DNA of 64,000 bases from Piezodorus guildinii (Eukaryota > Arthropoda > Insecta > Hemiptera > Pentatomidae): positions 86,349,169 through 86,413,168 of the forward strand of contig CM041292.1 in assembly GCA_023052935.1 (NCBI GenBank), read 5' to 3'. The translations under genes and the position numbers were made by a program. Positions 2,201 to 61,941 of this stretch are shown in pieces. How positions within the stretch are numbered: the stretch's first letter is position 1; each line of letters starts with the position of its first letter. The notes beneath the pieces are model-generated. The model saw nothing but the letters and a program-made list of their open reading frames with translations. It did not search any database and had not been told where the DNA came from.

Positions 2201-2203
2201 ATG
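2198..2203 (+). promoter_or_regulatory. TAA-ATG ORF1/ORF2 junction
   Basis: ORF1 ends with TAA and the ORF2 ATG follows with no gap, so both ORFs are in the same frame and separated only by one stop codon. The arrangement is identical in copy 2 (17350-17355) and copy 3 (60204-60209). Two mechanisms fit: termination then reinitiation on the adjacent AUG, as known for SART1-type LINEs with overlapping UAAUG, or stop readthrough giving a Gag-Pol fusion. The sequence alone cannot separate them. Confidence 0.7.
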
Positions 2204-15685: not shown

Positions 15686-16035
15686 TTTGTTTCCGAAAAG
15701 ATCAGCTGATGCGCTCGATGATAACAGTCATACGTTACTTCGTCTCTCAGATTTTTGCTTTTTTCAGTAGGAATTCGCTTGAGTTCAGTCTGGAAAACAT
15801 CACTAGACCTCAGGAATACTACAGCAGTGAATATTGGAGAAATTTCGGTAAGCAAAGTTATAATTTACTTTGTACAATCACGAAAAAGTGAAAGGAGGGT
15901 CACTGATCAGCTGATTGCCGCTAGCTCGGCAAGCTCGGGCTTGCTTTTCTTTTCCTTATCTTTCTTTTATTTATTTTTTTTCCTTCTTATTCTTATTCCA
16001 TTATATATTTATTCCTATTTATTTTTTTTTAATCA

Positions 16036-17352: not shown

Positions 17353-20061
17353 ATGACTTCACCTAACTCCTTATCCATTCTCCCATGGAATGCGAATGGT
17401 GTTAGAAATCATACTGACGAACTTACAGCTTTATTGCAAGACAAAAACGTTGACGTAGCACTTATTACTGAAACTAGACTAACCACTAAACAGCTCTTCA
17501 AAATACCTCAATACGTAACATACCGTACGGACCACCCAGACGGCAAAGCCCATGCCGGTACTGCTGTCATTGTGCACCAGTCCCTCTCTCATCACTTACT
17601 CCCACTTCCTACCTATGATTTCCTACAAACCACAGCCATAGTAATCAAAACTTTTTCCTTTCCGGTAACCCTTACATCAGCATATTGCCCTCCCAAACAT
17701 TCCATTTCCAACACCGAATTTCTATCCTTTCTAAATTCCTTAGGAAATCATTTCATTCTGGGTGCAGACTTAAATGCCAAGCATCAACAGTGGGGTTCGA
17801 GAACCACGAATTCTCGTGGACGAAATTTGCTGTCTGCACTCAACTCCCGTCATTTCAATCTCCTACCTCCTGATTCCCCTACCTACTGGCCAACCGATCC
17901 CAACCGTAATCCTGACATTCTTGACTTCTTCATTCACAGCGGATTAGGCTCCCTCAACTTATCTGTAACTCGACTTGATGAACTATCCTCAGACCATAGC
18001 CCACTGATCCTAAAAGTATCTCTCACTCCAATTCCAAAACCTATCCCACCGTCATTTATCCGAGGCCCTGTCAACTGGAACCTATTTCGCCAAATCCTGA
18101 CTGATAATATTAACCTCAGAGCGACCCTCAAAACCCCAGAAGACCTTGACGATTCCGTTTACTCCTTCACCACCGCCATTCAGCAAGCTGTCTGGACTGC
18201 CTCCTCTCCTAAGCACTCCAATATAACTCCTATCCAAAACCATTTGCCTCAACACCTTACAGACCTAATCCATGCAAAACGCCGTGCCAGATCATTATGG
18301 CAGCGCACCCGACACCCAACAGATCGCCGCTCCTATAACTTCTATTGTAGAAAATTGAAGCAGGAGTTGGCGATCTTCCGTTTCCAGTTTTTTAATTCCT
18401 ACCTCTCCTCTCTGTCGGCTAGTGATAATTCCCTGTGGAATGTCACGAAGAAGATTTTAAAATCCCATCAAGTTTCCCATCCTCTCCGGCGTGGTGGTGA
18501 CTCCTGGGCTGCGTCTGATGAAGATAAAGCCGAGGAATTCGCCACACACCTCTCCAAAGTATTTACTCCTCACCCGGAATCCCAAAGCAATCACACCGCA
18601 GCAGTACAAGACTTCCTTTTGTCACCAATACCTCCTTCCCTACCTCCTAAAGCTATTAATCCCTCTGAGGTTAAATATCTTCTCCAGAAACTGACCCTCC
18701 GTAAATCTCCTGGACATGATCTCCTTACCCCCCAGATCCTCCGTCAACTTCCGCAGAAAGCTATTATATTCTTTACCTATATCTATAACTGCATCCTACG
18801 CACCACCTATTTTCCTCTCTTGTGGAAACATTCCACAATCATTCTCTTCCTAAAACCAGATAAACCTTCCAGCAACACTTCATCCTACAGACCTATTAGT
18901 CTACTCCCCATCCTCTCAAAAGTCTTTGAAAAACTCCTTCTAAAACGAATCCTGCCTATATTAGAATCACAAAATCTTCCTTTCCATCAGTTTGGTTTCC
19001 GTGCTCATCATTCCACTGTTCAACAAGGACTCCGAGTTGTAGACCATATTTCTTCAGCCCTTGAATGCAAAGAGTATTGTTCTGGTGCGTTTCTGGACAT
19101 AGCGCAAGAGATCTTATGGATATATGGTAAAGCTTTTGACCGGGTATGGCACACCGGATTACTCTTCAAGCTTAAAACGCATTTACCCCAGTCTCTATAC
19201 CTCATTCTACGATCCTATCTCTCAAACCGCTCCTTCCGAGTTCGCTGTGGTGTAGAATTTTCTAACTTTTATACCATTGAGGCCGGTGTTCCTCAAGGCA
19301 GCGTCTTGGGACCCGTCCTCTACATCCTTTACACTGCTGATATTCCTAATCATCCTGACACCTTTCTGGCAACATTTGCAGATGACACCGCCATCCTATC
19401 ATCCAATTCCGATCCTGAAATAGCATCCTTAATCCTGCAAAGACACCTTTGTCTTATCGAGGACTGGTGTAATGCTTGGCGTATTAAGGTTAATGAAAGC
19501 AAATGCACCCACGTCACCTTCACCCTTCGACGCAAATCCTGTCCAATGGTTCATTTCAAATCCATACCGCTTCCTTCCTCAGACACAGTCCGGTATCTTG
19601 GCTTACTACTAGACAAAAGATTGACGTGGAACCCACATACAAGACTTAAACGAAAAGAACTCAACAGACGATTCGGACAGTTATACAGACTACTAAACAG
19701 AAAATCTAAGCTTACAGTTGACAACAAATTATTACTTTACAAGACAATACTGAAGCCAATGTGGACCTACGGACTTGAACTGTGGGGGACAGCTAAACGT
19801 TCTAACATCAAACGCATTCAATCCTTTCAATCCAAAGTCCTTCGAACAATAGTAAATGCTCCTTATTATGTCTCCAACTATACCCTTCACCACGACCTTA
19901 ATGTTCCATTTATTTCAGACCTGATTCCATCTAAATTTTCCAAATTCCACCAGAATCTCATTCATCATCCTAATCCTCTAGCACAATCCCTATCCAGCTC
20001 CACTCATCCATACAACCCTCCTAGAAGGTTGAAACGGCAGTGGCCCCGAGACATATTGTAA
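17353..20061 (+). CDS. LINE copy 2 ORF2: EN-RT with 8-residue insertion in motif A
   Basis: 902 aa. Endonuclease residues WNANG, ITE, AYCPP, GADLN and SDH and RT motifs B and C (GVPQGSVLGP, FADD) are conserved. Relative to copy 1 it is longer by exactly 8 codons, encoded by 19108-19131 and reading EILWIYGK. They fall between FLDIAQ and AFDRVW, four residues past the first motif A aspartate. The insertion is in frame, so the ORF remains open, but it sits beside the catalytic pocket and probably impairs the RT. No matching insertion is present in copies 1 or 3. Confidence 0.9.
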   Translation: MTSPNSLSILPWNANGVRNHTDELTALLQDKNVDVALITETRLTTKQLFKIPQYVTYRTDHPDGKAHAGTAVIVHQSLSHHLLPLPTYDFLQTTAIVIKTFSFPVTLTSAYCPPKHSISNTEFLSFLNSLGNHFILGADLNAKHQQWGSRTTNSRGRNLLSALNSRHFNLLPPDSPTYWPTDPNRNPDILDFFIHSGLGSLNLSVTRLDELSSDHSPLILKVSLTPIPKPIPPSFIRGPVNWNLFRQILTDNINLRATLKTPEDLDDSVYSFTTAIQQAVWTASSPKHSNITPIQNHLPQHLTDLIHAKRRARSLWQRTRHPTDRRSYNFYCRKLKQELAIFRFQFFNSYLSSLSASDNSLWNVTKKILKSHQVSHPLRRGGDSWAASDEDKAEEFATHLSKVFTPHPESQSNHTAAVQDFLLSPIPPSLPPKAINPSEVKYLLQKLTLRKSPGHDLLTPQILRQLPQKAIIFFTYIYNCILRTTYFPLLWKHSTIILFLKPDKPSSNTSSYRPISLLPILSKVFEKLLLKRILPILESQNLPFHQFGFRAHHSTVQQGLRVVDHISSALECKEYCSGAFLDIAQEILWIYGKAFDRVWHTGLLFKLKTHLPQSLYLILRSYLSNRSFRVRCGVEFSNFYTIEAGVPQGSVLGPVLYILYTADIPNHPDTFLATFADDTAILSSNSDPEIASLILQRHLCLIEDWCNAWRIKVNESKCTHVTFTLRRKSCPMVHFKSIPLPSSDTVRYLGLLLDKRLTWNPHTRLKRKELNRRFGQLYRLLNRKSKLTVDNKLLLYKTILKPMWTYGLELWGTAKRSNIKRIQSFQSKVLRTIVNAPYYVSNYTLHHDLNVPFISDLIPSKFSKFHQNLIHHPNPLAQSLSSSTHPYNPPRRLKRQWPRDIL

Positions 20062-34456: not shown

Positions 34457-35756
34457 TTATTCGAAGTATTTACTTTTTTCTACACATTTTTCCCAACGTG
34501 ACACCAACTTTTTTATCTCCGAACTGAAAAACTCCAGCTTTGAAGTGAAACAAAATCTGAAAACGCACTTTTCACTTGATCATCATTTTCAAAAAGTTTT
34601 CCTTTGACGAAGTTGTCTAAATTCCTGAACAGGTGGTAATCTGTTGGAGACCAGTCGGGAGAATATGGTGGGTGCGGATAAACTTCGTAGCCCGTTGTTT
34701 CAATTTTTGCACGGTATGTTTTGAAACATGGGGGTCTGGCGTTGTCGTGTAAGAGTATAGGACCTTTCCGATTTACCAATCCGGGTTGTTTTTTTAATAA
34801 TTTTGTGCGCATTTGGTCAATTTCATTGCAGTACGTTGCAGAGGTAATGGTTTCACTTCTAGGTAAAAAGGAGTAATGAATTATCCAGCCATGACCACCA
34901 TACTGTAACCATCATTTTTTTTTTGGGATGCAAATTCGGTTTTGGCATTTGTCCCGGGGTTTCGTCGATGTTCAACCACTGCCCTGACCGACGCTGATTG
35001 TCATATGCGATCCATTTTTCATCGCAGGTAATTATTCTTTAATGGAAAAGCTCGGTTTTTTGCCTCGCAAGCAAAGAAACGCAGGTCTCAAGGCGTTTCA
35101 ATTGCTACCGCTCAGTGAGATCATGAGGTAGTACCATGTATCGAGCTTTTTTGAGTCTGGAAACGGTAGATGCACTTGCATTTAGTTGTGCTGAGAGTCC
35201 TTTAACTGTTTGGTAGGGGTTTCCTTCTACCGTATATTTGAGAACATCGTTGTCTATTATTAGGAGCGGCGTGGTCTAGTGGATAGAGCGCTAGTCTACT
35301 GTGCTCCGGTCCTGGGTTCGAATCCGGCTGTGGCGGAATATTATTTATTCTGTAATTCAGTCAGGGGCGACCCTAGGGTATGGAGACCCTCCTGGGCAGA
35401 GCCAGCCTCTACAAAGTGGGTACCCAAATTAATTGGGAAAAACCTGGCGGCTGAGCGCGATTAAGGCCTAATCACCTCATTGCACTGCGTTGGCCTTGAA
35501 ACAGTACGAATCTCTATATATACTGAGCCCAAGACCCTTCATGGTTGTAGTGTACAGGTTTAAGGTTGTCTATAGGTCTTCCTCGGGGCAAGTTTTAAGT
35601 CGGTATCCCAGCTGAAAACTTAGCAACCAACGGCGAATGGTCCGTTCATTAACACTCCCTTTCTCAAACGCCTTGCAAATATTCTAGCAGCCTCAGCTGC
35701 TGATTGGCCGAGTTAAACTCGTACAAAAATATTACTCGAAAATCGCGTGTTTCCAT
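34457..35756 (-). pseudogene. mariner transposase pseudogene
   Basis: Minus strand, starting METRDFRVIFLYEF. The first aspartate motif is ITCDEKWIAYDNQ (near 35010-35050). The second and third are in LLHDNARP and YSPDWSPTDYH, with exactly 34 residues between those two aspartates (D34D). The C-terminus reads KKLVSRWEKCVEKSKYFE before TAA at 34457-34459. There are frameshifts near 34545, between the first and second motifs and in the N-terminal part, stops in the N-terminal region, and a SINE at 35258-35564. The normally conserved His after HDNARP is Pro here. Inactive. Confidence 0.9.
35258..35564 (+). mobile_element. tRNA-derived SINE, family 3, inside mariner
   Basis: The head has an A box TGGTCTAGTGG and a B box GGTTCGAATCC; a body of about 240 bp is unrelated to families 1 and 2. 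A 9-bp TSD GTTGTCTAT lies at 35249-35257 and 35565-35573, and joining the flanks restores mariner sequence. There is no poly(A); the tail is TATATATAC followed by unique sequence. Pol III origin is inferred from the boxes. Confidence 0.9.
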
Positions 35757-41495: not shown

Positions 41496-41884
41496 TCGTT
41501 ACTAGTGTGATATGTTTTGTCCTGAAGCAGTAAAGGTAAATAAAGAGGACCTGAGTATTCTAGAAGATAAGGCAGAAAAGGCTATAGAAAAGAATACCTG
41601 TAAAAGAAAAAAAAACAAAAAAACAACAGCAAGTATGGTATAACAAATGAGCTTATTGTTGAAGATAAAGAAGCTTTGTAAGGTAAAACCCCTTAGTATT
41701 ATCTTTAATAAAATAATCAATGAAAAGTCAGTCCCTAGCGAGTGGAAAGTAAGCAAGATTATTGTTTTACATAAAAAAAGAAAAAAAAAGGATAGCTTGG
41801 AGGAATTTCGCCCTATTTTATTAACTCAAAATACCTACAAACTATTTTGTAAAATATTAAAAAATAGAAATATATGAAATTATA
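41496..41884 (+). pseudogene. RT pseudogene, left part (split by the foldback element)
   Basis: Reads KPLSIIFNKIINEKSVPSEW, then KVSKIIVLHKKRKKKDSLEE and FRPILLTQNTYKLFCKILKN. This is the region of an endonuclease-RT ORF just before motif A (usual form: P-x-x-W-x-x-x-x-I-x-L-H-K-K-G, then Y-R-P-I-S-L-L, then I-Y-K-L-x-x-K-I-x-x-x-R). It stops at the left end of the foldback element. The protein resumes at 54319. Confidence 0.8.
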
Positions 41885-42060
41885 TAGCATTTCCAAGTCA
41901 AATTCAACCTTTTCCAAGTCAAATTCAACCTTTTCCAAGTCAAATTCAACTTTTTCCAAGTCAAATTCAACTTTTTCCAAGTCAAATTCAACCTTTTCCA
42001 AGTCAAATTCAACCTTTTCCATTTCAATCAACCTTTTTCGATTTCAATAAAATAATAAAA
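41885..42060. repeat. Left subterminal 21-bp repeats
   Basis: Six close copies of TTCCAAGTCAAATTCAACCTT, then one degenerate copy (TTTCCATTTCAATCAACC). The reverse strand is an open frame coding for a repeating 7-residue unit, which follows simply from the 21-bp period and is not taken as a gene. Confidence 0.95.
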
Positions 42061-42310
42061 ATCAAATTAACATGATTTTATGTTTTTATGTTTTTTTTAA
42101 TTACACATTATGTTTTTAGCCCTTGTGGCTTGTTAAATGTTCCCAGGGGCATTTTTACATATAATTAGTCACGATTATAATAATAAGTATAACCGATACT
42201 TCGATTTATAGACATTTTCGATACAAGGTCTGGTAGTCGGATTAGCGGGGGTCCGTTTTATTTTAGTTTTATAATCGCGGGCGAAAATATTATCAATATA
42301 AGTTTATTTT
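42061..42310. repeat. Left unique terminal inverted-repeat segment
   Basis: Reverse-complementary, with few differences, to 53895-54150. Landmarks are TGTTCCCAGGGGCATTTTTA, ATACAAGGTCTGGTAGTCGG, ATTAGCGGGGGTCCGTTTTA and ATAATCGCGGGCGAAAATAT. No ORF or binding-site motif is recognised. This is where a transposase would be expected to act together with the 21-bp repeats. Confidence 0.9.
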
Positions 42311-43060
42311 AACTTTTTCGTATTTATAGGATAGTAGGCTCAGTAGATGTGTTCACAAAGGTTCGTTACCGATTACACTATTAATTTTAATTGCGCTCGC
42401 TCAAATATGGCTTTATTATAACTTTTTCGTATTTATTGGATACAAGGCTCAGTAGCTCGGTTTCCAAAGGTTCGTTACCGATTACACAATTAATTTTAAT
42501 CGCGCTCGCTCAAATATGGGTTTATTATAACTTTTTCGTATTTATTGGATACAAGGCTCAGTAGCTCCGTTCCCAAAGGTGCGTTACCGATTACACAATT
42601 AATTTTAATCGCGCTCGCTCAAATATGGGTTTATTATAACTTTTTCGTATTTATTGGATGCAAGGCTCAGTACCTCCGTTCCCAAAGGTTCGTAACCGAT
42701 TACACTATTAATTTTAATTGCGCTCGCTCAAATATGGGTTTATTATAACTTTTTCGTATTTATTGGATACAAGGCTCAGTAGCTCCGTTCCCAAAGGTTC
42801 GTTACCGATTACACAATTAATTTTAACCGCGCTCGCTCAAATATAGGTTTATTATAACTTTTTCGTATTTATTAGATACTAGGCTCAGTAGCTGCGTTCC
42901 CAAAGGTTCGTTACCGATTACACTATTAATTTTAATAGCGCTCGCTCAAATATGGGTTTATTATAACTTTTTCGTATTTATTGGATACTAGACTCAGTAG
43001 CTGCGTCCTCAAAGGAGCGTTACCGATTATACTGTTAATTTTTATCGCGCTCGCTCAAAT
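42311..43060. repeat. Left satellite arm, about 7 monomers of 109 bp
   Basis: Landmark GGCTCAGTA recurs at about 42338, 42447, 42556, 42664, 42773, 42882 and 42990, a period of 109 (one step 108). Monomers differ from each other at scattered bases. Orientation is opposite to the right arm. A CpG-rich word GCGCTCGCTC is present in every unit. Confidence 0.95.
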
Positions 43061-43274
43061 TTCTGTATTTGTGTGTTGGGGTGTTTTGTTAGTGAATGTG
43101 TTAATGTTTTTTTAGTCAGTTGATCTAAAGTATGTTTATTTCTAGCTTTCTATATCTTTTCATCTATTGGGTTACCGCTTATCCTTTTTATCAGGATAGT
43201 AAGTTATCTTTTTGGTTAATATTTTGGAGTTTAATAATCAGCTAAACAGAACGATTTTATACGTCTGTTTTTAT
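43061..43274. other. Central spacer of the foldback element
   Basis: About 210 bp of sequence that is not satellite, between the two inverted arms. It has no ORF and no inverted symmetry that I can see. It is the loop if the arms pair. Confidence 0.8.
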
Positions 43275-46200
43275 TTGATAAACCTCTACTTGAGTTAGCG
43301 CAATTAAATTTAATAGTATAATCTGTAACCAAACCTTGGTTACGCAGCGACTGAGCCTAGTATGCAGTAAATATGGACAAGTTAAAATAAACCTCTTCTT
43401 GAGCAAGCGCGATTTAAATTAATAGCATTATCGGTAACGAACCCCCCGTAACACAGTAATTGAGCCTAATAGCAAATAAATACGAAAAAGTTATAATGAA
43501 CCCATATATGAGCGAGCGAGACTAAAATTAATAGTGTAATCGGTAACGAACCTTTGAGAACGAAGCTACTGAGCCTAGTATCCAATAAATACGAAAAAGT
43601 TATAATAAAGCCATATATGAGCGAGCGCGATTAAAATTAATAGTGTAATCGGTAACGAACTTTTGGGAACGAAGCTACTGAGCCTAGTATGCAGTAAATA
43701 TGGACAAGTTAAAATAAACCTCTTCTTGAGCGAGCGCGATTTAAATTAATAGTATTATCGGTAACGAACCCCCCGTAACACAGTAATTGAGCCTAATAGC
43801 GAATAAATACGAAAAAGTTATAATGAACCCATATATGAGCGAGCGAGACTAAAATTAATAGTGTAATCGGTAACGAACCTTTGAGAACGAAGCTACTAAG
43901 CCTAGTATCCAATAAATACGAAAAAGTTATAATAAAGCCATATATGAGCGAGCGAGACTAAAATTAATAGTGTAATCGGTAACGAACCTTTGAGAACGAA
44001 GCTACTGAGCCTAGTATCCAATAAATACGAAAAAGTTATAATAAAGCCATATATGAGCGAGCGCGATTAAAATTAATAGTGTAATCGGTAACGAACTTTT
44101 GGGAACGAAGCTACTGAGCCTAGTATGCAGTAAATATGGACAAGTTAAAATAAACCTCTTCTTGAGCGAGCGCGATTTAAATTAATAGTATTATCGGTAA
44201 CGAACCCCCCGTAACACAGTAATTGAGCCTAATAGCGAATAAATACGAAAAAGTTATAATGAACCCATATATGAGCGAGCGAGACTAAAATTAATAGTGT
44301 AATCGGTAACGAACCTTTGAGAACGAAGCTACTGAGCCTAGTATCCAATAAATACGAAAAAGTTATAATAAAGCCATATATGAGCGAGCGCGATTAAAAA
44401 TAATAGTGTAATCGGTAACGAACCTTTGGGAACGGAACTACTGAGCCTAGTATCCAATAAATACGAAAAAGTTATAATAAAGCCATATTTGAGCGAGCGC
44501 GATTAAAATTAATTGTGTAATCGGTAACGAACCTTTGGGAACGGAGCTACTGAGCCTTGTATCCAATAAATACGAAAAAGTTATAATAAACCCATATTTG
44601 AGCGAGCGCGATTAAAATTAATAGTGTAATCGGTAACGAACCTTTGGGAACGGAGCTACTGAGCCTTGTATCCAATAAATACGAAAAAGTTATAATAAAG
44701 CCATATTTGAGCGAGCGCGATTAAAATTAATAGTGTAATCGGTAACGAACCTTTGGGAACGGAGCTACTGAGCCTTGTATCCAATAAATACGAAAAAGTT
44801 ATAATAAAGCCATATTTGAGCGAGCGCGATTAAAATTAATAGTGTAATCGGTAACGAACCTTTGGGAACGGAGCTACTGAGCCTTGTATCCAATAAATAC
44901 GAAAAATTTATAATAAAGCCATATTTGAGCGAGCGCGATTAAAATTAATAGTGTAATCGGTAACGAACCTTTGGGAACGGAGCTACTGAGCCTTGTATCC
45001 AATAAATACGAAAAAGTTATAATAAAGCCATATTTAGGGGAGCGCGATTAAAATTAATAGTGTAATCAGTAACGTACCTTTGGGAACGGAGCTACTGAGC
45101 CTTGTATCCAATAAATACAAAAAAGTTATAATAAAGCCATATTTGAGCGAGCGCGATTAAAATTAATAGTGTAATCGGTAACGAACCTTTGGGAACGGAG
45201 CTACTGAGCCTTGTATCCAATAAATACGAAAAAGTTATAATGAAGCCATATTTGAGCGAGCGCGATTAAAATTAATAGTGTAATCGGTAACGAACCTTTG
45301 GGAACGGAGCTACTGAGCCTTGTATCCAATATATACGAAAAAGTTATAATAAAGCCATATTTGAGCGAGCGCGATTAAAATTAATAGTGTAATCGGTAAC
45401 GAACTTTTGGGAACGGAGCTACTGAGCCTTGTATCCAATAAATACGAAAAAGTTATAATAAACCCATATTTGAGCGAGCGCGATTAAAATTAATAGTGTA
45501 ATCGGTAACGAACCTTTGGGAACGGAGCTACTGAGCCGTGTATCCAATAAATACGAAAAAATTATAATGAAGCCATATTTGAGCGAGCGCGATTAAAATT
45601 AATAGTGTAATCGGTAACGAACCTTTGGGAACGGAGCTACTGAGCCGTGTATCCAATAAATACGAAAAAGTTATAATGAAGCCATATTTGAGCGAGCGAG
45701 ATTAAAATTAATAGTGTAATCGGTAACGAACCTTTGGGAACGGAGCTACTGAGCCTTGTATCCAATAAATACGAAAAAGTTATAATAAAGCCATATTTGA
45801 GTGAGCGCGATTAAAATTAATAGTGTAATCGGTAACGAACCTTTGGGAACGGAGCTACTGAGCCTTGTATGCAATAAATACGAAAAAGTTATAATAAAGC
45901 CATATTTGAGCGAGCGCGATTAAAATTAATAGTGTAATCGGTAACGAAATTTGGGAACGGAGCTACTGAGCCTTGTATCCAATAAATACGAAAAAGTTAT
46001 AATAAAGCCGTATTTGAGCGAGCGCGATTAAAATTAATAGTGTAATCGGTAACGAACCTTTGGGAACGGAGCTACTGAGCCTTGTATCCAATAAATACGA
46101 AAAAGTTATAATAAACCCATATTTGAGCGAGCGCGATTAAAATTAATAGTGTAATCGGTAACGAACTTTTGGGAACGGAGCTACAGAGCCTTGTATCCAA

Positions 46201-49075
46201 TAAATACGAAAAAGTTATAATAAAGCCATATTTGAGCGAGCGCGATTAAAATTAATAGTGTAATCGGTAACGAACCTTTGGGAACGGAGCTACTGAGCCT
46301 TGTATCCAATAAATACGAAAAAGTTATAATAAAGCCATATTTGAGCGAGCGCGATTAAAATTAATAGTGTAATCGGTAACGTACCTTTGGGAACGGAGCT
46401 ACTGAGCCTTGTATCCAATAAATACGAAAAAGTTATAATAAAGCCATATTTGAGCGAGCGCGATTAAAATTAATAGTGTAATCGGTAACGAACCTTTGGG
46501 AACGGAGCTACTGAGCCTTGTATCCAATAAATACGAAAAAGTTATAATAAACCCATATTTGAGCGAGCGCGATTAAAATTAATAGTGTAATCGGTAACGA
46601 ACCTTTGGGAACGGAGCTACTGAGCCGTGTATCCAATAAATACGAAAAAGTTATAATGAAGCCATATTTGAGCGAGCGCGATTAAAATTAATAGTGTAAT
46701 CGGTAACGAACCTTTGGGAACGGAGCTACTGAGCCGTGTATCCAATAAATACGAAAAAGTTATAATGAAGCCATATTTGAGCGAGCGCGATTAAAATTAA
46801 TAGTGTAATCGGTAACGAACCTTTGGGAACGGAGCTACTGAGCCTTGTATCCAATAAATACGAAAAAGTTATAATAAAGCCATATTTGAGCGAGCGCGAT
46901 TAAAATTAATAGTGTAATCGGTAACGAACCTTTGGGAACGGAGCTACTGAGCCTTGTATCCAATAAATACGAAAAAGTTATAATAAAGCCATATTTGAGC
47001 GAGCGCGATTAAAATTAATAGTGTAATCGGTAACGAACCTTTGGGAACGGAGCTACTGAGCCTTGTATCCAATAAATACGAAAAAGTTATAATAAAGCCA
47101 TATTTGAGCGAGCGCGATTAAAATTAATAGTGTAATCGGTAACGAACCTTTGGGAACGGAGCTACTGAGCCTTGTATCCAATAAATACGAAAAAGTTATA
47201 ATAAAGCCATATTTGAGCGAGCGCGATTAAAATTAATAGTGTAATCGGTAACGAACCTTTTGGGAACGGAGCTACTGAGCCTTGTATCCAATAAATACGA
47301 AAAAGTTATAATAAAGCCATATTTGAGCGAGCGCGATTAAAATTAATAGTGTAATCGGTAACGAACCTTTGGGAACGGAGCTACTGAGCCTTGTATCCAA
47401 TAAATACGAAAAAGTTATAATAAAGCCATATTTGAGCGAGCGCGATTAAAATTAATAGTGTAATCGGTAACGAACCTTTGGGAACGGAGCTACTGAGCCT
47501 TGTATCCAATAAATACGAAAAAGTTATAATAAAGCCATATTTGAGCGAGCGCGATTAAAATTAATAGTGTAATCGGTAACGAACCTTTGGGAACGGAGCT
47601 ACTGAGCCTTGTATCCAATAAATACGAAAAAGTTATAATAAAGCCATATTTGAGCGAGCGCGATTAAAATTAATAGTGTAATCGGTAACGAACCTTTGGG
47701 AACGGAGCTACTGAGCCTTGTATCCAATAAATACGAAAAAGTTATAATAAAGCCATATTTGAGCGAGCGCGATTAAAATTAATAGTGTAATCGGTAACGA
47801 ACCTTTGGGAACGGAGCTACTGAGCCTTGTATCCAATAAATACGAAAAAGTTATAATAAAGCCATATTTGAGCGAGCGCGATTAAAATTAATAGTGTAAT
47901 CGGTAACGAACCTTTGGGAACGGAGCTACTGAGCCTTGTATCCAATAAATACGAAAAAGTTATAATAAAGCCATATTTGAGCGAGCGCGATTAAAATTAA
48001 TAGTGTAATCGGTAACGAACCTTTGGGAACGGAGCTACTGAGCCTTGTATCCAATAAATACGAAAAAGTTATAATAAAGCCATATTTGAGCGAGCGCGAT
48101 TAAAATTAATAGTGTAATCGGTAACGAACCTTTGGGAACGGAGCTACTGAGCCTTGTATCCAATAAATACGAAAAAGTTATAATAAAGCCATATTTGAGC
48201 GAGCGCGATTAAAATTAATAGTGTAATCGGTAACGAACCTTTGGGAACGGAGCTACTGAGCCTTGTATCCAATAAATACGAAAAAGTTATAATAAAGCCA
48301 TATTTGAGCGAGCGCGATTAAAATTAATAGTGTAATCGGTAACGAACCTTTGGGAACGGAGCTACTGAGCCTTGTATCCAATAAATACGAAAAAGTTATA
48401 ATAAAGCCATATTTGAGCGAGCGCGATTAAAATTAATAGTGTAATCGGTAACGAACCTTTGGGAACGGAGCTACTGAGCCTTGTATCCAATAAATACGAA
48501 AAAGTTATAATAAAGCCATATTTGAGCGAGCGCGATTAAAATTAATAGTGTAATCGGTAACGAACCTTTGGGAACGGAGCTACTGAGCCTTGTATCCAAT
48601 AAATACGAAAAAGTTATAATAAAGCCATATTTGAGCGAGCGCGATTAAAATTAATAGTGTAATCGGTAACGAACCTTTGGGAACGGAGCTACTGAGCCTT
48701 GTATCCAATAAATACGAAAAAGTTATAATAAAGCCATATTTGAGCGAGCGCGATTAAAATTAATAGTGTAATCGGTAACGAACCTTTGGGAACGGAGCTA
48801 CTGAGCCTTGTATCCAATAAATACGAAAAAGTTATAATAAAGCCATATTTGAGCGAGCGCGATTAAAATTAATAGTGTAATCGGTAACGAACCTTTGGGA
48901 ACGGAGCTACTGAGCCTTGTATCCAATAAATACGAAAAAGTTATAATAAAGCCATATTTGAGCGAGCGCGATTAAAATTAATAGTGTAATCGGTAACGAA
49001 CTTTGGGAACGGAGCTACTGAGCCTTGTATCCAATAAATACGAAAAAGTTATAATAAACCCATATTTGAGCGAGC
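43275..49075. repeat. Right satellite arm, regular 109-bp array
   Basis: About 53 monomers, inverted relative to the left arm. 43275-44400 is heterogeneous with higher-order structure: the variant TATGCAGTAAATATGGACAA starts at about 43361, 43688 and 44124, spacings of 3 and 4 monomers (327 and 436 bp). At 45440-45770 and 46530-46860 a block of variants (CCCATATTT, GAGCCGTGTA twice, TAATGAAGCC) is repeated 1090 bp apart, a 10-monomer duplication. From about 46850 to 48980 the monomers are almost perfectly identical. It has no coding content. Confidence 0.95.
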
Positions 49076-52000
49076 GCGAAGACGATTAAAATTAATAGTG
49101 TAACGGTAACGAACCTTGGACGATACTGACTGTATCCAATAAATACGAAGTTATAAAAACCATTACGAGGGATTAAAATTATGTGAACGGTACGAACTTT
49201 GGAACGAGTACGACTTTATCCAATAAATACGAAGTTAAAAAATATTAGCGGGCGATTTAAAATTATAGTGATCGTAACGAATTTGAAACAGCTACTGAGC
49301 GGTATAATATACGAAAAAGTTTAAAACATATTGAGCGAGCGATTAAATAATAGAAGTTTTAAAGAACTGGAAATATATTCCAATAAATAGAATTTAATGA
49401 ACTGGGAACGGAGTACTGAGCCTGTATCCAATAAATAGAAAGTATAATAAGCCATATTTGAGCGAGCGCATTAAAATTAATAGTGTATCGGTAACGACTT
49501 TGGGAACGGAGCTATGAGCCTTGTATCCAATAAATACGAAAAAGTTATAATAAAGCCATATTTGAGCGAGGCGATTAAAATTATAGTGTAATCGGTAACG
49601 AACTTTGGAACGGAGCTACTGAGCCTTGTATCCAATAATACGAAAAAGTTATATAAACCATATTTGAGCGAGCGCGATTAAAATAATAGTGTAATCGGTA
49701 ACGAACTTTGGGAACGGGCTACTGACCTTGTATCCAATAAATACGAAAAAGTTATAATAAACCATATTTGAGCGAGCGCGATTAAAATTAATAGTGTAAT
49801 CGGTAACGAACCTTTGGGAACGGAGCTACTGGCCTTGTATCCAATAATACGAAAAGTTATAATAAAGCCATATTTGAGCGAGCGCGATTAAAATTAATAG
49901 TGTATCGGTAACGAACTTTGGGAACGGAGCTACTGAGCCTTGTATCCAATAATACGAAAAAGTTATAATAAACCCATATTTGAGCGAGCGCGATTAAAAT
50001 TAATAGTGTATCGTAACGAACTTTGGGAACGGAGTACTGACTTGTATCCAATAAATACGAAAAAGTTATAATAAACCATATTTGAGCGAGCGCGATTAAA
50101 ATTAATAGTGTAATCGGTAACGAACCTTGGAACGGAGCTACTGAGCCTTGTATCATAAATACGAAAAAGTTATAATAAAGCATATTTGAGCGAGCGCGAT
50201 TAAAATTAATAGTGTAATCGTAACGAACCTTTGGGAACGGAGTACTGAGCCTTGTATCCATAAATACGAAAAAGTTATAATAAACATATTTGAGCGAGCG
50301 CGATTAAAATTAATAGTGTAATCGGTAACGAACTTTGGGAACGGAGCTACTGAGCTTGTATCCAATAAATACGAAAAAGTTATAATAAACCCATATTTGA
50401 GCGAGGCGAAAAATTATGAAGCGATTGAAATTATAATATGTAATACGGTAAACGGTAATTATGGTGAACGGAGCTACTGAGCTGATCCAATAAATGAAAA
50501 AGTTAAACCATTTGAATGACTATTATAAAAAAAGAATATAATAAAAGCATATTTACGACGCGTAAATTAAAAGTATAATGTAAGCCGTAAGAACCGGAAA
50601 GCTATGGCTTGTATAATAAATAGAAAAGTTAAAAGCCATTTGAAGAGCATAATAAATAATAGTAAGTAATGACTGGCAGTATTACTAATAAAATAAAAAA
50701 AATTAAAAAACCTTTTGTGCGAGCTGATTAAAAAATAATTTAAGTAATTTGGAACGTTAAATTCTTTGACCGTTAAATAAAATTTGAATAAATAATTGAA
50801 ATGAATAAGCGTTAAAATTAAAGTAGTAAAACTTGGAGACTCGACTGATCAAAAAATAGAAAAAGTTATAAAAACTATATTTGAGCCACGCGATAAAAAT
50901 TAATAAATGGTAACACCTATTGGACGAGCATGACTTAATTCAAATTGAATCTAAAAAACTAAATAAGGACAGTAATGAATGAAAGAAATATTTAAGTAAC
51001 ATTTGAAGAGATAAAAATAATATAATAAGAACCATTTGAACGCGTTTAGTGAATAATTGAAGAATAATGTAAAGAACTATTAGAGGCTATAAATAAAAGA
51101 AAATCTAACAAATTTGAAGTATGGCCTTACGATAAATTATAAGATAAAGACCTTTAGGAACGGTAAAATTTAATAAGAAAGTTACGAACCTTTGTAAACA
51201 AATTGCGTAAATAAATAAGTAATTTAAAAAAATGAATGAATAAAATTTTAATAGTAATTAAAATCTATAGAAAGAACCCAAAAATATAATAGTAACTAAA
51301 GAAACATAATTGTGGAGCGATTTAAAATTAATGATAATATAACGAAACTGGGAAGCTAACTTGTACAAAAATAAATTAGAAGAACAATTAGGATCCATAA
51401 AATAATATTAATAAACGAATTTGGAAGAGCGAGAATTAAATTTTTTGGAAAAATAGTAAAGTGTAAACTGATCATTAAATAATAAATTATGAAAGAATTT
51501 GAAAGGGATTAAGAATGTTAATTAAACTAAGAACGAATAACCCTTTCAAAAAAATTATTATAAAACTAAGCTATGAAAATAATATTTGGTAAGAATTAGG
51601 AACGATAAATTAAATTTTTAAAAATAAAATTATGAAACTAATACAGGATCAATAAATTATGGAAAATTAGAAACGGTTTAATAGCCTTACAGAATAAAAA
51701 ATTTTAAGGAACGACTTTGGAACGGCTATAACAATAGAATACTAAAACTTTGAAAGCAATTGACCAGCAATAAAAAACTTATAATGGAAATTACTTTAAT
51801 TAAATATGATGGACGAACTTGGAAGAGCTTAATCATACAAAATACGAAAAAATTATAATAAGCTATTTAGAACGAATTAAGTGTATGTAAACTTGTAAAA
51901 CCTTTAGGTATAATAGTACAAAAATATAAAAAGTTTAAAAGCCATATAATAGTGACGAAAATTATCTGGTAAGAACCTTTAAAAAAATACGACGCAAAAA

Positions 52001-53845
52001 AGAAAAAATAATAAGTTTGACGGAATTAAAAAGGAATGGTAAAAACTTGGGAAAGAGTAACCACGAAAAATAAAAAAAATTTGAAGCCTTAAATAATATT
52101 TATGGTAACGATTTTAAAAAATTTTAACATAAATAGAAAAGTATTAACATTATTAGCGGCCGATTTAAAATAAAAAGGAGCTTAACCACTAATTTGAAAA
52201 AATCAAAAAGTATTAAACCATTTAAAGAGAATTAAAATAAAAGAAAATTAAAATAAAGTTGTAAACAAATTTAGAACGGAAAACCTTTTAAATAACGTAA
52301 ATTTAAATAAAATTTTTAACAGGTAAATAAAGAAATTATAATTTGAAAGATATAAAAAATAACAAATAATAAACATTAAATTAAATAAAAATTATATTGG
52401 GAAAAGTTAATAGCCTTTTCAAAAATTAAAGAAGACCTTTTAGCGGATAAAATAAATAATGAAAAGGGAAAATTTAAATTAAACCAAAAAAAATTATAAT
52501 AAACCTAAATTGAGAGGGTTAAAACTAATATAAAAAATTGGAAAAAATTTGGGAAATTTAATAATGAAAAATTATTTAACCAATTGAGGGGAAATTTAAT
52601 ATAAATAAATGAAAAATTAATGGTAATCGTAAAACTTTGAAATTAAAATGGCTGTTAAAATTCAATAGTAATAGATAATTAAGAATATTAAATGTAATGA
52701 ATAGACGAACTTTGTACAACTAAATCAAAAGTTAATAAACATTTAAGAAAAATTATGTAACGAAAACAATTGGAACGATTACTTTAACCAAAAATAAAAA
52801 GTTATATAAGCCAATTTGGGAAGCGCGATAAATTAAATTAATACGAACCTTTGGAAAGGGTATTGTGCACATTAAAAATAATTATAACGAAATTTGGACG
52901 GGCTATAATTAATAGTTAATCGGTAACGAACCTTTGGGAACGGATATCTGAGCCTTATCCCTAAAACTAAAAAGTTAATAAAACCATATTTGGCGAGCGG
53001 ATTAAAATTAAAGTGTAAACGAACGAACCTTGGAAAAACCAATATGAAATATTAATAGAATTTAACGAACGTTAATTTTTTAAAATGATCGATAAAATTT
53101 GAAGGGGAAAACCTTTACAATAAGAAATTAAATAAAATTGAAGGGGAAAATTAAAATTAATTACAGAATTTGGATCGAACTAGATTTTGCATATCGAGCA
53201 ATAAAGAATATTACTAACCCATATTTTAAAGTGTATTAAAATTGGTAAGTAAGAAGCCTTGAAAAACCAATTATGCAAAAAATATCGAAAAGATAAAAAA
53301 TATTGAGCAGCTTTATATAATGGAATAAACGTTAGAATAAAAATTGATAATTAATATTTAAATTAAAAAACTATTGAGGAACGCTTGAAATAAATTGGAA
53401 AGGTAAAAACCTTTGAAAAGGCATGGCTTGAAACCAATTACGAAAGTTAAAAAACCATTTCGGGCGCTTAAATAATATGAATTTATCAAATTTGGAAGGA
53501 TAATTAATTAAAAACGAAAAATATTAAAACCATCTTGAGACGATTAAAATAATAAGGTTGTAAAACTTGAAAGGATAAATTTATGAAAATCGAAAAAAAT
53601 TATAGTGAATGGAAGCGACTTTGAAGGTTAATGAGTGTACGAAAAAGAAAATTAATAATTCATAGCGGGAAATTAAATAAGTGTACAACGGAATTGAAAT
53701 TAATGATACGTACAAATGAAGAGTTAAGGTACCAAATTTCGAAAAAATTTTAAGCATAAACACGAAAAAATAAAGTAATGAAGAAATTGGAAAGTATAAG
53801 GATTTAAAAATTGAAAAAGTATATATAAACTTATGGACGAAGGAA
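49076..53845. repeat. Right satellite arm, deletion-ridden skeleton (suspect assembly)
   Basis: Fragments of the same monomer in the right order, but with bases dropped. At 49500-50400 single-base losses (CCTTT to CTTT, AATAAATAC to AATAATAC) shift the period slightly. At 50400-53840 so many bases are missing that only words such as TTTGGAACG, GAGCGAG and ATTAAAATTAA survive. It returns to a clean monomer at about 53848. Deletions without matching substitutions or foreign sequence point to a faulty long-read consensus over a repeat. Its true length and sequence should be treated as unknown. Confidence 0.85.
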
Positions 53846-54150
53846 CACATCTACTGAGCCTACTATCCTATAAATACGAAAAAGTTAAAATAAACTTATA
53901 TTGATAATATTTTCGCCCGCGATTATAAAACTAAAATAAAACGGACCCCCGCTAATCCGACTACCAGACCTTGTATCGAAAATGTCTATAAATCAAAGTA
54001 TCGGTTATACTTATTATTATAATCGTGACTAATTATATGTAAAAAGGCCCCTGGGAACATTTAACAAGCCACTAGGGTTAAAAACATAATTTGTAATTAA
54101 AATAACCATAAAAACATAAAATCATGTTAATTTGATTTTTATTATTTTAT
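53846..54150. repeat. Last monomer and right unique terminal segment
   Basis: A final clean monomer (CTGAGCCTACTATCCTATAA) leads into the reverse complement of 42061-42310, including GATTATAAAACTAAAATAAA and GACCCCCGCTAATCCGACTA. The few mismatches to the left copy are scattered. Confidence 0.9.
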
Positions 54151-54314
54151 TGAAATGGAAAAAGGTTGAATTTGAAATGGAAAAGGTTGAATTTGACTTG
54201 GAAAAGGTTGAATTTGACTTGGAAAAAGTTGAATTTGACTTGGAAAAGGTTGAATTTGACTTGGAATAGGTTGAATTTGACTTGGAAAAGGTTGAATTTG
54301 ACTTGGAAATGCTA
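54151..54314. repeat. Right subterminal 21-bp repeats
   Basis: The mirror image of the left end: two degenerate units then six copies of AAGGTTGAATTTGACTTGGA, ending GGAAATGCTA at 54314. Copy number matches the left end. Confidence 0.95.
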
Positions 54315-54318
54315 TATA

Positions 54319-55424
54319 TCAGGATCACGGTATAGAACAAGCCGGCTTCCGCCCCACGTTCAGTAAAACAGATAAACTCCAATGTATTAATCAGCTTATC
54401 AAGGAAAGTAGAGAATACGACAGAGAATTAGAGAATTTCGACTCGATCAGTCATAAGTATACGAGAAGCACTGTATGAATCTGGCGTAGACTAACACTAC
54501 ATTAAAGTATCATGAAGTTATATAGGAATGGAAAATCATTCGTGGCGTTGGATAGGGAAGGCGATTACTTTGAGGTTAAACGAGGAGTGAAACATGTTAT
54601 TAAACAAATTATTCAGAGAACTGAATTGGGAAAGCCTGGGAATATATGTCAATGGTAAAATGCTAAACAACCTGAGATTTGCGGATTATATATGTCTAAT
54701 ATCTCCGAATATATGATTAACGGTCTAAGGAGGATTTTAAAGGAAATAGTAGACATTAGCAAAAAGTATGGGCTTAGTTTAATACATCGATAACAAAAAT
54801 CATGACGAATTCAATAGAAATACCAATTTATTCAAACAATAGTGAGATAAAATATGTAGAGAAGTATATTTACTTAGGGCAGACAATAAAATTCAGGAAA
54901 AATATGAATAAGGAAATAGAAAGAATAATTAAGCTCGGGTGGTGTAAATATTGGTCTCTCCAAAAAATATTTAAAAGCGATCTATCACTGGATCTTAAAA
55001 CCAAAGTTTCGACCACATGTGTATATCCCACGGTTCTCTATCGGGCTCAAACCTGGACACTAACAAGAAAACTTGATCTGAGGCTGAATACCATCCAAAT
55101 TTTATGGCTGAATACCAGCTTCTGAGGAGTTCAATGTTTATTAAGAAACGTGAAGGAATAAAAATGAAGATATTCTTCAGAAGGTTAACATTAAAAAGTT
55201 AAAGGATTGTGGCCCATCGATTGAAATGGAGCTGTGCTGGGCACTTGGCCAGACTGAAAGACGAAAGATGGACCAAGGCTTGCAACGGAGTGGATCCCGA
55301 GAGAGGACAGCAGGCAGAGGGGGCGACCACATCGCAGGTGGAGGGATGAATTGACGCAGGGTGTAGGCGAAAACTGGTGGCTGGTTGCAAGTGACAAATC
55401 CTAGTGGAAAAACGTTTTAAAGAA
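54319..55424 (+). pseudogene. RT pseudogene, right part
   Basis: Resumes as LYQDHGIEQAGFRPTFSKTD (IEQAGFR is the usual sequence at this point of endonuclease-RT ORFs), then KLQCINQLIKESREYDREL. After several stops come IKYVEKYIYLGQTIKFRKN (YLG-x-x-I motif), LKTKVSTTCVYPTVLYRAQT and, at 55310-55380, RGRPHRRWRDELTQGVGENW (R-W-x-D-E/D-L), the normal C-terminal order. Catalytic motifs A to C are lost or too decayed to place. It is an old RTE/CR1-like relic, continuous with 41496-41884. Confidence 0.8.
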
Positions 55425-57521: not shown

Positions 57522-60206
57522 TTACAATATATCTCGGGGCCAATGCCGTTTCAACCTTCTAGGTGGGTTGTATGGATGAGTGGAGCTGGATAGGGATCGT
57601 GCTAAAGGATTAGGATGATGAATGAGGTTCTGATGGAATTTGGAAAATTTGGATGGAATTAGGTTTGAAATAAATGGAACATTAAGGTCGTGGTGCAAGG
57701 TATAGTTGGATACATAATAAGGAGCATTTACTATTATTCGGAGGACTTTGGATTGAAAGGATTGAATGCGTTTGATGTTAGAACGTTTAGCTGTCCCCCA
57801 CAGTTCAAGTCCGTAGGTCCAGATGGGCTTCAGTATTGTCTTATAAATTAATAATTTGTTCTCAACTGTAAGTTCAGATTTTCTGTTTAATAGTCTGTAT
57901 AACTGTCCGAATCGTCGATTGAGTTCTTTTCTTTTAAGTCTTGTATGTGGGTTCCACGTCAGTCTTTTGTCTAGTAGTAAGCCAAGATAGCGGACTGTAT
58001 CTGAAGAAGGAATAGGAATGGAATTGAAGTAAACTGGCGGACAGGAGTTTCGTCGAAGAGTAAAGGTTACGTGTTTGCATTTGGCCTCGTTCACCTTTAT
58101 GCGCCAAGCACCACACCAGTCTTCGATAAGACAAAGGTGTCTCTGCAGGATTAAGGATGCTGTTTCGGGATCGGAACTGGATGATAGGATGGCGGTGTCG
58201 TCGGCAAATGTTGCTAGAAAGGTGTCAGGATGATTAGGAATATCAGCGGTGTAAAGGATGTAGAGAACGGGTCCCAGGACGCTGCCCTGAGGAACACCGG
58301 CCTCAACGGGATAACAGTTGGAAAATTCTACACCACAGCGTACTTGAAAGGAGCGGTTTGAGAGATAGGATCTTAGAATGAGGTAGAGAGACTGGGGTAA
58401 ATGCGTTTTAAGCTTGAAGAGTAATCCAGCGTGCCATACCCGGTCAAAAGCTTGCGCTATGTCCAGAAACGCACCAGAACAATACTCTTTGCATTCGAGG
58501 GCTGAGGAAATATGGTCTACAACTCGGAGTCCTTGTTGAACAGTGGAATGATGAGAACGGAAACCAAACTGGTGGGAAGGAAGGTTGTGAGATTCTAATA
58601 TAGGCAGGATTCGTTTTAGAAGGAGCTTTTCGAAGATTTTTGATAGGATGGGGAGTAGACTAATAGGTCTGTAGGATGAAGTGTTACTGGAAGGTTTACC
58701 TGGTTTTAGGAATAGAATGATTGTGGAATGCTTCCACAAGATAGGAAAATAGGTGGTGCGAAGGATGCAGTTGTAGATGTATGTAAGAAAAATAATGGCT
58801 TTCTGGGGAAGTTGTCGCAGGATCTGGGGAGTAAGGAGATCATTTCCAGGGGATTTACGAAGTGTCGGTTTTTGAAGAAGATATTTCACCTCAGATGGAT
58901 TAATAGCTTTAGGAGGTAGGGAAAGAGGTATTGGTGAGAAAAGGAATTCTTGAACTGTTGTGGTATGATTTCTGTTGGATTCCGGGTGAGGAGTGAATAC
59001 TTTGGAGAGGTGTGTGGCGAATTCCTCGGCTTTATCTTCATCAGACGCAGCCCAGGAGTCATCACCACGCCGGAGAGGATGGGAAACTTTGTGGTATTTG
59101 AGGATCTTTTTGGTCACATTCCACAGGGAATTATCTCGAGCTGATAGAGAGGAGAGGTAGGAATTAAAGGACTGGGAACGGAAGGTCGCCAACTCCCGCT
59201 TTAATTGCTTACAATAAAAGTTATAGGAACGGCGATCTGTTGGGTGTCGGGTTCTTTGCCATAATGATCTGGCTCGGCGTTTTGCATGGATGAGGTCAGC
59301 TAGGTGTTAAGGTAAATGGTTTTGCTGAGGAGTTCTATTGGAGTGCTTAGGAGAGGAGGCAGTCCAGACAGCTTGCTGAATGGCGGTAGTAAAGGAGTAG
59401 ACGGAATCATCAAGGTCATCCGGTGTTTTGAGGGTCACAGTGAGGTCAATATTATCGGTGAGGATTTGGCGGAAGAGGTTCCAGTTGACAGGGCCTCGGA
59501 TAAATGAAGGTGGAATGGGTTTCGGAATAGGAGTTAGGGATACTTTAAGGATCAGTGGACTATGGTCAGAGGATAGTTCATCAAGGCGAGTTACGGAATA
59601 GTTCAGGGAGCCTAATCCGCTGTGGATGAAGAAGTCGAGGATATCTGGATTACGGTTAGGATCTGTTGGCCAGTAGGTAGGGGAGTCAGGAGGTAGGAGG
59701 TTAAAATTTCGGGAATTCAGAGCAGTCAGCAAATTTCTTCCACGAGAATTCGTGGTTCTAGAACCCCACTGCTGGTGCTTGGCGTTTAGATCTCCACCCA
59801 GAATAAAATGATTTCCTAGGGAATCCAGGAAGGATGCAAATTCGGTGTTGGAAATGGAGTGTTTGGGAGGGCAATATGCTGATGTAATAGTTACCGGATA
59901 GGAAAAAGTCTTGATTACTATTGCTGTGGCTTGCAGGAAATCATAGGTAGGAAGTGGAAGTAAATGATGAGAGAGGGATTGGTGGACAATGATAGCAGAA
60001 CCGGCATGAGCTTTGCCGTCTGGGTGGTCTGTACGGTATGTTATGTACTGCGGTATTTTGAAAAGCTGTTTAGTGGTTAGTCTAGTTTCAGTAATAAGTG
60101 CAACGTCAATTGTTTTGTCTTGCAACAACGCTGTCAGTTCGTCAGTGTGATTTCTAACACCATTCGCATTCCAAAGGAGAATGGATAAGGAATTAGGTGA
60201 GGTCAT
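57522..60206 (-). pseudogene. LINE copy 3 ORF2 (EN-RT, one in-frame stop)
   Basis: 894 codons, collinear with copy 1. A single CAA-to-TAA change at codon 300 (in HLP-stop-HLADLIHAKR) separates an intact endonuclease half (WNANG, ITE, AYCPP, GGDLN, SDH) from an intact RT half (FLDIAQAFD, GVPQGSVLGP, FADD). The position before the endonuclease DLN motif is G instead of A. Motif A lacks the 8-residue insertion of copy 2. The C-terminal half shares with copy 2 residues such as LCLIEDWC, WRIKVNE and LKRKELNRR. Not a pair of genes: both pieces are in one frame. Confidence 0.92.
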
Positions 60207-61523
60207 TTATGGTTTTTGTAAGGCAGGAATGAGATTTGATACAAGGTTCGTAAGGAGTGATATTAGAGGCATAACGAGGGATTTGATTTCGGAGATGAAG
60301 GATGTCATGAGACTGGTAAGGTCTGTGACATTTGATGGAGAAGGGATATGAGAAATTTGATGTTGAGGAGTTTTTTGAAGAGTAGGTAAACTTTGAGGGA
60401 TAGATTGTTGTACAATAGATTGAGAAAGTTGAGGAAAAAGTTGTTCCGGCAGTGCCTCGACTTCATGATTCTGGTTTCCACCTCCAAGCAAGTGGGCAAA
60501 TGATACGTTAGAATTTACAAGTTTAGATGGTTCTCTTCTGCTTCTGGTTGGTACAGCTGTTTCATTCGGATCCTGAGGTTTTTGGTATCTGGTTCTGAGT
60601 TTCTTGTAGATTTCACATCCCTTGTAGTTAGCCGGGTGGTCCTTGAGGCACAGAGCACATACAGCGGGTGTAGATCTTGATCTTGTACATTCTTCTGTTT
60701 TATGCTGTTCACCGCATTTCACACAGCGTGGTATGTGATGTCAATAACTTTTGGTATGACCATATGCCTGACAGTTATGACACTGAACTATTTCCCTCTT
60801 TGTGTAAGGTTTTTCAACTTTTACACGGGTATAGTACAGTCTACTGAGGTCATAGATTTTTTCGACTCCTGCTGATGGTTCCAAGTCCACGAAGAATAGA
60901 GGCAGTGGACTTTTATCTTTTAGAACGTTGGTGACTTGCCTCACTTGGAATCCTAATTCTGTCAGTTCTTCTTTGATAGCTTCAACGGGTGTTGAGGAAT
61001 GTAGGTTTCTGATTACGACCCTTAATGCTCTCTCCTGGCGCAGCTGATAAGTATGAAAGTCAGCTTTGGTCTCAGTCAGATATTTTACAATCTTTATGTA
61101 GGTTTCAGCAGTAGTCGGAGATATTTTAGTATCATTGGTTCTACTTATACAATAATAACTATTAGGATCAGTTACTTTGTTTAAATGCGCACACATCAGT
61201 TTAAAATTTTTAATATTTTTAACAAATATTGGTGGAGGTAGTGGTTCCCTGGGTATAGGAGAAGATTCCATGGTTTCTTTTTCATTTTGGAGGATCTCAA
61301 ATGGATTCGGTGTAAAAAACGGGGATTCATCAGTTATTCCTTGTGATGATGTGCTGGGCTGTGGTTCAGATCCTAATGAGGTAGCTGACGCGGTCGCTGG
61401 TGGAATTATTTTTTTATTTTGTTCACGGCGGGGTCTCTGTTTTGTAGGAGACGAGTTAGAACCTACAGATCTAGATCTTTTACTTGCAGACTTTGAGGAC
61501 ATGACTTGATGAAAATATCTCAT
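60207..61523 (-). pseudogene. LINE copy 3 ORF1 (Gag, one in-frame stop)
   Basis: 438 codons, collinear with copy 1 and differing from it at few positions (for example V for A at 20, I for M at 39, E for Q at 76). TGC to TGA replaces C261, the last ligand of the first zinc knuckle, so the product would end after 260 residues without knuckles 2 and 3. The frame is otherwise open to the TAA-ATG junction. Confidence 0.92.
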
Positions 61524-61941
61524 TGATTAAGAAAATAATAATAATAAATAAATAATGAGATAAGAATTAAAGATAAAAGAAAGATAAGTTAACGAAAAGC
61601 AAGCCCCAGCTTGCCGAGCTAGCGGCAATCAGCTGATCAGTGACCCTCCTATCACTTTTTCGTGATTGTACAAAGTAAATTATGACTTTGCTTACCGAAA
61701 TTTCTCCAATATTCACTGCCGTAGTATTCCTGAGGTTTAGTGATGTTCTCCAGACTGAATTCAAGCGAATTCCTACTGAAAAAAGCAAAAATCTGAGAGA
61801 CGATGTAACGTATGACTGTTATCATCGAGCGCATCAGCTGATTTGAATATTGGTTATTAAAATGGTCTATAGGCTAACAAAGAAATCAGTTTTTTTTTTT
61901 CTTCCAAAACCAATAAAAAATACATAAAACATACAAATCCG

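Follow-up and report, generated by a model that had tools for sequence, protein, structure and literature searches.

The FB elements of Drosophila melanogaster are foldback transposons whose long inverted repeats vary in length, consist of tandemly arranged short FB repeats and are accompanied by a 9-bp target duplication. Tetris/TIR-220 of Drosophila virilis is a non-autonomous foldback element with tandem repeats of ~220 bp in its terminal inverted repeats (TIRs) and a middle domain; its arrays are normally short, and long homogeneous ones of up to 66 copies have turned satellite-like (PMC4079207). Its target duplication is 8-10 bp, and three structurally complete copies have been reported (PMC4079207). 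In Atlantic cod, gadMor-hAT-1784 is a miniature inverted-repeat transposable element (MITE) with two TIRs of ~600 bp made of inverted 167-169-bp tandem repeats, which its authors class as hAT-derived and which sits at inversion breakpoints (PMC12368964). Here we analyzed a stretch of 64,000 nucleotides of Piezodorus guildinii (contig CM041292.1; the whole stretch is hereafter the window), in which a 12.4-kb block with opposed arms of a 109-bp satellite repeat interrupts a reverse transcriptase (RT) pseudogene. This block belongs to a dispersed family, and we consider, with a probability of roughly 0.8, that the family is a non-autonomous foldback transposon whose arms can grow after insertion into incipient satellite arrays.

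The block at 41,887-54,312 starts with GCATTTCC and closes with its reverse complement GGAAATGC, and the outer ends (41,881-42,354 against the reverse complement of 53,843-54,318) are identical at 464 of 476 positions (97%). From outside inward, TATA and GCATTTCC are followed by 21-bp repeats, ~250 bp of further sequence, a 109-bp array and a core of ~230 bp, and the mirrored half then leads to GGAAATGC and TATA. The core measures 229 bp (43,061-43,289) and separates two strongly unequal arms, the left with 7 monomers (42,295-43,060) and the right, reversed, with ~66 (43,290-50,416). The window element therefore has the structure that defines foldback elements, namely long TIRs containing tandem repeats. 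The preliminary description had proposed a giant foldback element with matching inverted ends and with 109-bp arms facing each other; both points are borne out here, with the arms differing widely in size. It had counted six 21-bp repeats per end, whereas we find seven, the innermost being a variant. The ~250-bp segment that it regarded as unique sequence is present, but the inner 135 bp of this segment is a degenerate monomer. The element and its target are composed as follows.

41,506-41,882, plus strand: left part of the interrupted pseudogene (target), the RT of a long interspersed nuclear element (LINE)
41,883-41,886, no strand: left TATA, probable target duplication
41,887-42,034, plus strand: left terminus GCATTTCC and seven 21-bp subterminal repeats (TTTCCAAGTCAAATTCAACCT)
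42,035-42,294, plus strand: left inverted-repeat segment of ~250 bp, its inner half a degenerate 109-bp monomer
42,295-43,060, minus strand: left arm, seven 109-bp repeats
43,061-43,289, plus strand: core separating the arms
43,290-50,416, plus strand: right arm, ~66 monomers, the enlarged array
50,417-53,842, plus strand: heavily damaged 109-bp repeat of low G+C, probably a failed consensus of the array
53,843-54,162, minus strand: right inverted-repeat segment of ~250 bp and the start of the first monomer
54,163-54,312, minus strand: seven 21-bp repeats and the right terminus GGAAATGC
54,313-54,316, no strand: right TATA, probable target duplication
54,317-55,400, plus strand: right part of the interrupted LINE RT pseudogene (target)

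The source genome (1.203 Gb in 434 contigs, with the window on C1; seven contigs of 118-222 Mb account for almost the whole length) was searched, and the copies sampled are those most similar to the 250-bp segment of the window copy, in stretches no longer than 10 kb. This segment gave 1,799 first-look candidates, and all 40 that were scored cover at least 249 of its 250 bases at 96-100% identity. The family is present in each of the 20 fetched regions, and 17 of them have an inverted end on both sides and 109-bp arms facing each other; L033 and L034 carry internal deletions, and a single end of L045 is visible within the fetched stretch. Fourteen of the 20 loci contain the core, in one orientation at nine and in the other at five (first copy per locus counted), and two of the fourteen, L032 and L040, contain only part of it; a genome search with the core gave 1,023 first-look candidates, 40 of which were scored. 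The two-ended copies other than that of the window (n = 19) measure 549-4,080 bp, compared with 12,430 bp for the window copy, and the 17 two-armed loci have ~2-18 monomers per arm. When 800 bp on either side of 21 elements were compared, 36 matches emerged, none of them in register on both sides. These matches fit shared interspersed repeats, and the flanks otherwise differ between copies; the flanks of L036 and L038 match on both sides, but their places and orientations are discordant. Dispersed copies of variable length in unrelated flanks are thus found, as in foldback transposons, and two of the outcomes that the preliminary description had named as refuting its proposal (a lack of other copies with the same termini, and termini always in the same flanks) did not occur. 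An inverted duplication could also produce a one-off palindrome, and the block might then be a local palindrome or a segmental inversion of resident satellite with no transposon involved. The many dispersed copies with the same termini, their different flanks, the TATA at most ends and the empty sites described below leave that reading next to no probability. TIRs are more alike within an element (mean 97.1% identity in 18 elements, three of them at 100%) than between elements (95.6%, 612 pairs), which indicates that the family moved recently.

TATA terminates 38 of the 43 distinct end flanks that remained after internal repeats were dropped and identical flanks were collapsed. Among the five others, the L024 flank is a CA run, the L046 flank reads AAAA behind a TA run, and L048 is a decayed relative; those of L026 and L031 are, by our reading, not true termini. 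Strong targeting of TA microsatellites was considered and rejected, as 10 of the 43 flanks lie in (TA)6 or longer runs versus 71 of 527 TATA sites in the window, which is no firm enrichment given that identical flanks had been collapsed. The L036 copy is inserted in an interspersed repeat, and 12 paralogous stretches free of the element were compared with it. Six of them have 8 bases (TATATATA or TATGTATA) at the site, five have a longer form, and one has a TA run. At the occupied site, TATATATA stands to the left and TATA to the right of the element, and 12 bases lie outside GC..GC compared with 8 at the empty site. Since half of the paralogs hold 8 bases where the occupied site holds 12, a 4-bp TATA target duplication is favoured, although not proven. 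The 8-10-bp duplication of FB and Tetris was not found, and the flanks of L032, L034, L036 and L050 allow at most 4 bp, TATA.

A second empty site was worked out in the window itself. When the element and one TATA are taken out, the alignment to each of three RT homologues (P0121-P0123) continues in a single frame across the join, and the alignment set of P0121 reaches an E value of 2e-47 for the joined sequence versus 3e-12 and 1e-34 for the separate flanks. LINE paralogs without the element at this site read through it in all nine cases fetched from 41 matches listed. Pfam searches with four separate LINE pieces gave no RT match. The proposal that removal of the element rejoins the RT pseudogene thus agrees with both sets of comparisons, and the TATA or TA duplication suggested along with it is seen as TATA at most ends, its size being favoured only as 4 bp because TA-rich sites blur it. 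A MITE of the Tc1/mariner type, with a TA duplication and ends reading TAGCATTTCC, would likewise target TA-rich sequence, and the TATA at the 38 end flanks is compatible with a TA target. The four-base difference between the L036 site and six of its paralogs, and the recovery of one RT frame at the window site once 4 bases are removed, speak against this type of element, which we consider unlikely.

The 109-bp repeat itself is related to the ends of the element. Aligned with the monomer, the inner 135 bp of the 250-bp segment scores 61, whereas the best of 300 shuffles scores 49; thus the monomer and the TIR share a common ancestry. For the whole 235-bp segment, the similarity is marginal (score 70, versus a maximum of 62 in 200 shuffles), and the core shows no similarity to the monomer exceeding that of shuffled sequences.

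Monomers are on average 86.2% identical across elements (10% sample of pairs) and 91.4% identical inside one arm, a mean to which the right arm of the window contributes 1,891 of 2,549 pairs. Within this arm, the 18 monomers at 46,887-48,848 are free of substitutions relative to the consensus of the array itself. When three monomers were used to search the genome, 40 scored candidates gave at least 231 matches, with the window first and a long run on C4 included. This run is a second enlarged copy (C4:169.093-169.103 Mb, L062-L063), ~9 kb in total, in which arms of ~6.9 kb and ~1.1 kb flank the core; its TIR segments are 86-90% identical to those of the window, and its termini have decayed. 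In the window the core comes after the short arm and before the long one, whereas the order is opposite in the C4 copy. Arms have therefore lengthened on at least two occasions, and not always on the same side of the core. The window copy most likely owes its 12.4 kb to in situ growth of one arm after insertion, since the other copies measure 0.55-4.1 kb and the homogeneous block is confined to one arm. Alternatively, the full unit of ~12 kb, already with its long satellite arm, could have transposed into the RT pseudogene, as the intact ends and the clean insertion would allow. All 19 other measured two-ended copies are at most 4.1 kb long, the sole other large copy examined has the opposite arm long, and the 18 substitution-free monomers in one arm contrast with the 86% identity between elements in the sampled pairs; transposition of the full unit is thus quite improbable. 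The earlier idea that an array forms the body of a transposed unit therefore stands for the family, but not in the form of a 12.4-kb satellite block that moved as such.

Arrays at the fetched loci and in the C4 copy all lie inside elements, except for a fragment at L037:9205-9510. This fragment consists of 2-3 monomers without a terminal repeat, is bounded by an 18-bp direct repeat (ATCATAAGCCCTGCACTC), and looks like an insertion of satellite alone that made a long target duplication and arrived by a route other than the transposon.

The length of the window array has to be read with care. In 327-base windows across 50,484-53,753, 20-32% of the repeat is deleted and 6-13% is substituted, with a G+C content of 0.18-0.29. 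The two windows at 52,119-52,772 hardly match the repeat; they score -6.5 and -1.5, and 10 shuffled versions of one window score -30 to -61. At 49,503-50,156, deletions amount to 4-5% with nearly no substitutions, as would be seen in an unpolished long-read consensus. The repeat at 48,950-49,400 is also riddled with deletions and looks more like a consensus failure than a biological change. Insertions and deletions are almost lacking from most of 43.3-48.8 kb. Judging from the pattern of deletions and errors, the ~3.3 kb at 50.5-53.8 kb is probably a failed long-read consensus, and the element's 12.4-kb length is therefore unreliable. The deletion pattern is what this reading is drawn from, and two simple simulations of an out-of-register consensus failed to reproduce the damage. 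The damage at 50.5-53.8 kb and the almost exclusive deletions at 49.5-50.2 kb could be taken to mean that the entire enlarged array is an assembly artefact. Such an extension of the artefact is decidedly improbable given the nearly intact bulk of 43.3-48.8 kb and the second enlarged copy on C4, which has 0-7% deleted bases per window, and the simulations did not yield the observed damage either. These data suggest that such arrays can break long-read consensus.

Taken together, we consider that the element is mobilised by a transposase acting in trans, presumably in cut-and-paste fashion. This enzyme would presumably recognise GCATTTCC and the 21-bp subterminal repeats and insert the element at TATA, probably with duplication of 4 bp. 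The 109-bp monomers may have derived from the inner TIR or arisen together with it, and the short arrays in both arms would transpose along with the element. After insertion, an arm could lengthen via unequal exchange or replication slippage, as most likely occurred here and, independently, in another copy, giving rise to incipient satellite arrays within a transposon. Several points weigh against this scheme. The sampling by best 250-bp matches, limited to 10 kb per stretch, could under-represent long copies, and the nearest relative of a TIR is its own partner in just 17 of 36 cases. Duplication lengths in TA-rich sequence are also inconsistent, with 4 bp at L036 and 6 bp at the window site when compared with L060, which looks closest among the LINE paralogs; we attribute the extra two bases to TA slippage. 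Growth after insertion is read from one snapshot in which no allele lacking the expansion was seen, and the largest array suffers in part from problems of assembly. Finally, no transposase or autonomous partner was seen, although no search of the genome for transposase families was made.

The same ends may also serve other bodies. The element at L052 (C5:147.0383-147.0426 Mb; region G000:C5:147037900-147042700), which we call family B, shares its terminus with the window family, carries 21-bp repeats akin to those of that family (TTTCCAAGTCAAATGTAACCT), and occupies a repeat and a site of the same kind as the L036 copy does. Its opposed arms, which match at 89% across 1,595 bp, consist of a 112-bp repeat with higher-order periods, including one of 445 bp. 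Homology between the 112-bp monomer and the 109-bp monomer of the window family (family A) was not supported, as 26 of 200 shuffled sequences score at least as high. The inner TIR of family B showed no similarity to its own repeat above shuffled sequences (score 71, shuffle maximum 91), nor did the segments of the two families to each other (observed score reached by 191 of 200 shuffles) or the two cores (75 and 54, versus shuffle maxima of 88 and 87). A decayed relative at L048:1-2262 shares the terminus and has 21-bp-like repeats, but satellite arms are not visible in it, and four of its six reading-frame pieces over 60 aa gave no Pfam match. This single copy of family B suggests that the same ends can carry different arrays. 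It is conceivable, albeit somewhat doubtful, that a modular clan exists in which GCATTTCC, the 21-bp repeats and the TATA target drive families with unrelated satellite bodies of 109 and 112 bp. If so, these transposons would work like factories, time and again creating or taking up tandem repeats, spreading them and allowing them to grow into new satellite arrays, and opposed arrays may be under selection as an aid to transposition.

Other repeats were noted around these elements. The window contains one Jockey-like LINE three times (881-4,885, 16,033-20,061 and 57,522-61,526), two of them with both long frames open and the third split by stops, and a remnant of a mariner-type transposase at 34,513-34,911 (Pfam Transposase_1, E 5e-7). 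Among named records, the proteins closest to a Jockey-type ORF of the window are one labelled Pantoea sp. Taur, presumably a contamination, and one of the water bug Ranatra chinensis. At L049:5343-8936, an element lies beside a second right end that adjoins a LINE 3' end with poly-A, within TG/CA repeats, forming a nested rearrangement.

The present family was not found in the open-licence literature, which was searched by topic and not by sequence, and none of the 31 satellite families in Table 1 of a study of Edessa has a length of 109 bp (PMC13427858). Satellites on holocentric chromosomes, which the stink bug host would have, are described there as comparatively understudied, and 2n = 14 is given for the pentatomid Edessa (PMC13427858). 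The kind of element is already known, with Tetris and gadMor-hAT-1784 as close structural precedents in the published accounts consulted. The likeness to the cod element is one of description, in that its TIRs are tandem repeats in inverted order. In Xenopus, miDNA4 is a Tc1/mariner MITE with a satellite-like array of variable length, proposed as a source of satellite DNA, and further MITEs with tandem repeats cited in the same paper are the Donax MITEs and terMITEs (PMC12628747). miDNA4 resembles the present family in holding an array within a non-autonomous transposon, and the description consulted mentions no two opposed arms. MuTAnT of Medicago, a Mutator-like element, has the foldback shape and a TA-microsatellite target, and the 14 of its 218 copies that do not lie in perfect TA runs show 9-nt duplications (PMC4486113). 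It differs in size, 90% of its copies being 200-300 bp long, and satellite arms do not figure in the part of its description consulted (PMC4486113).

FB shares the inverted ends of tandem repeats and their variable length, and differs in its 9-bp duplication; like Tetris, it is compared here by layout and not by sequence. The two had been named as analogues in layout, which is upheld for layout but not for target duplication (9 and 8-10 bp, versus TATA favoured here). Tetris resembles the present family in having a middle domain, TIRs that contain tandem repeats and an outer domain that flanks them, in the occurrence of both short and long homogeneous arrays, in a repeat that shares a stretch with the outer TIR, and in that no transposase was found, as far as its published account was consulted (PMC4079207). 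The differences are the target duplication, the additional layer of 21-bp subterminal repeats in the present family, and the number of complete copies, three in Tetris compared with 17 two-ended loci with opposed arms among the 20 fetched here. With many copies, two of which have empty sites worked out and two a several-fold longer arm, the transition from a short intra-transposon array to a satellite array becomes measurable copy by copy, and Tetris is the closest precedent that we found for it in the accounts consulted.

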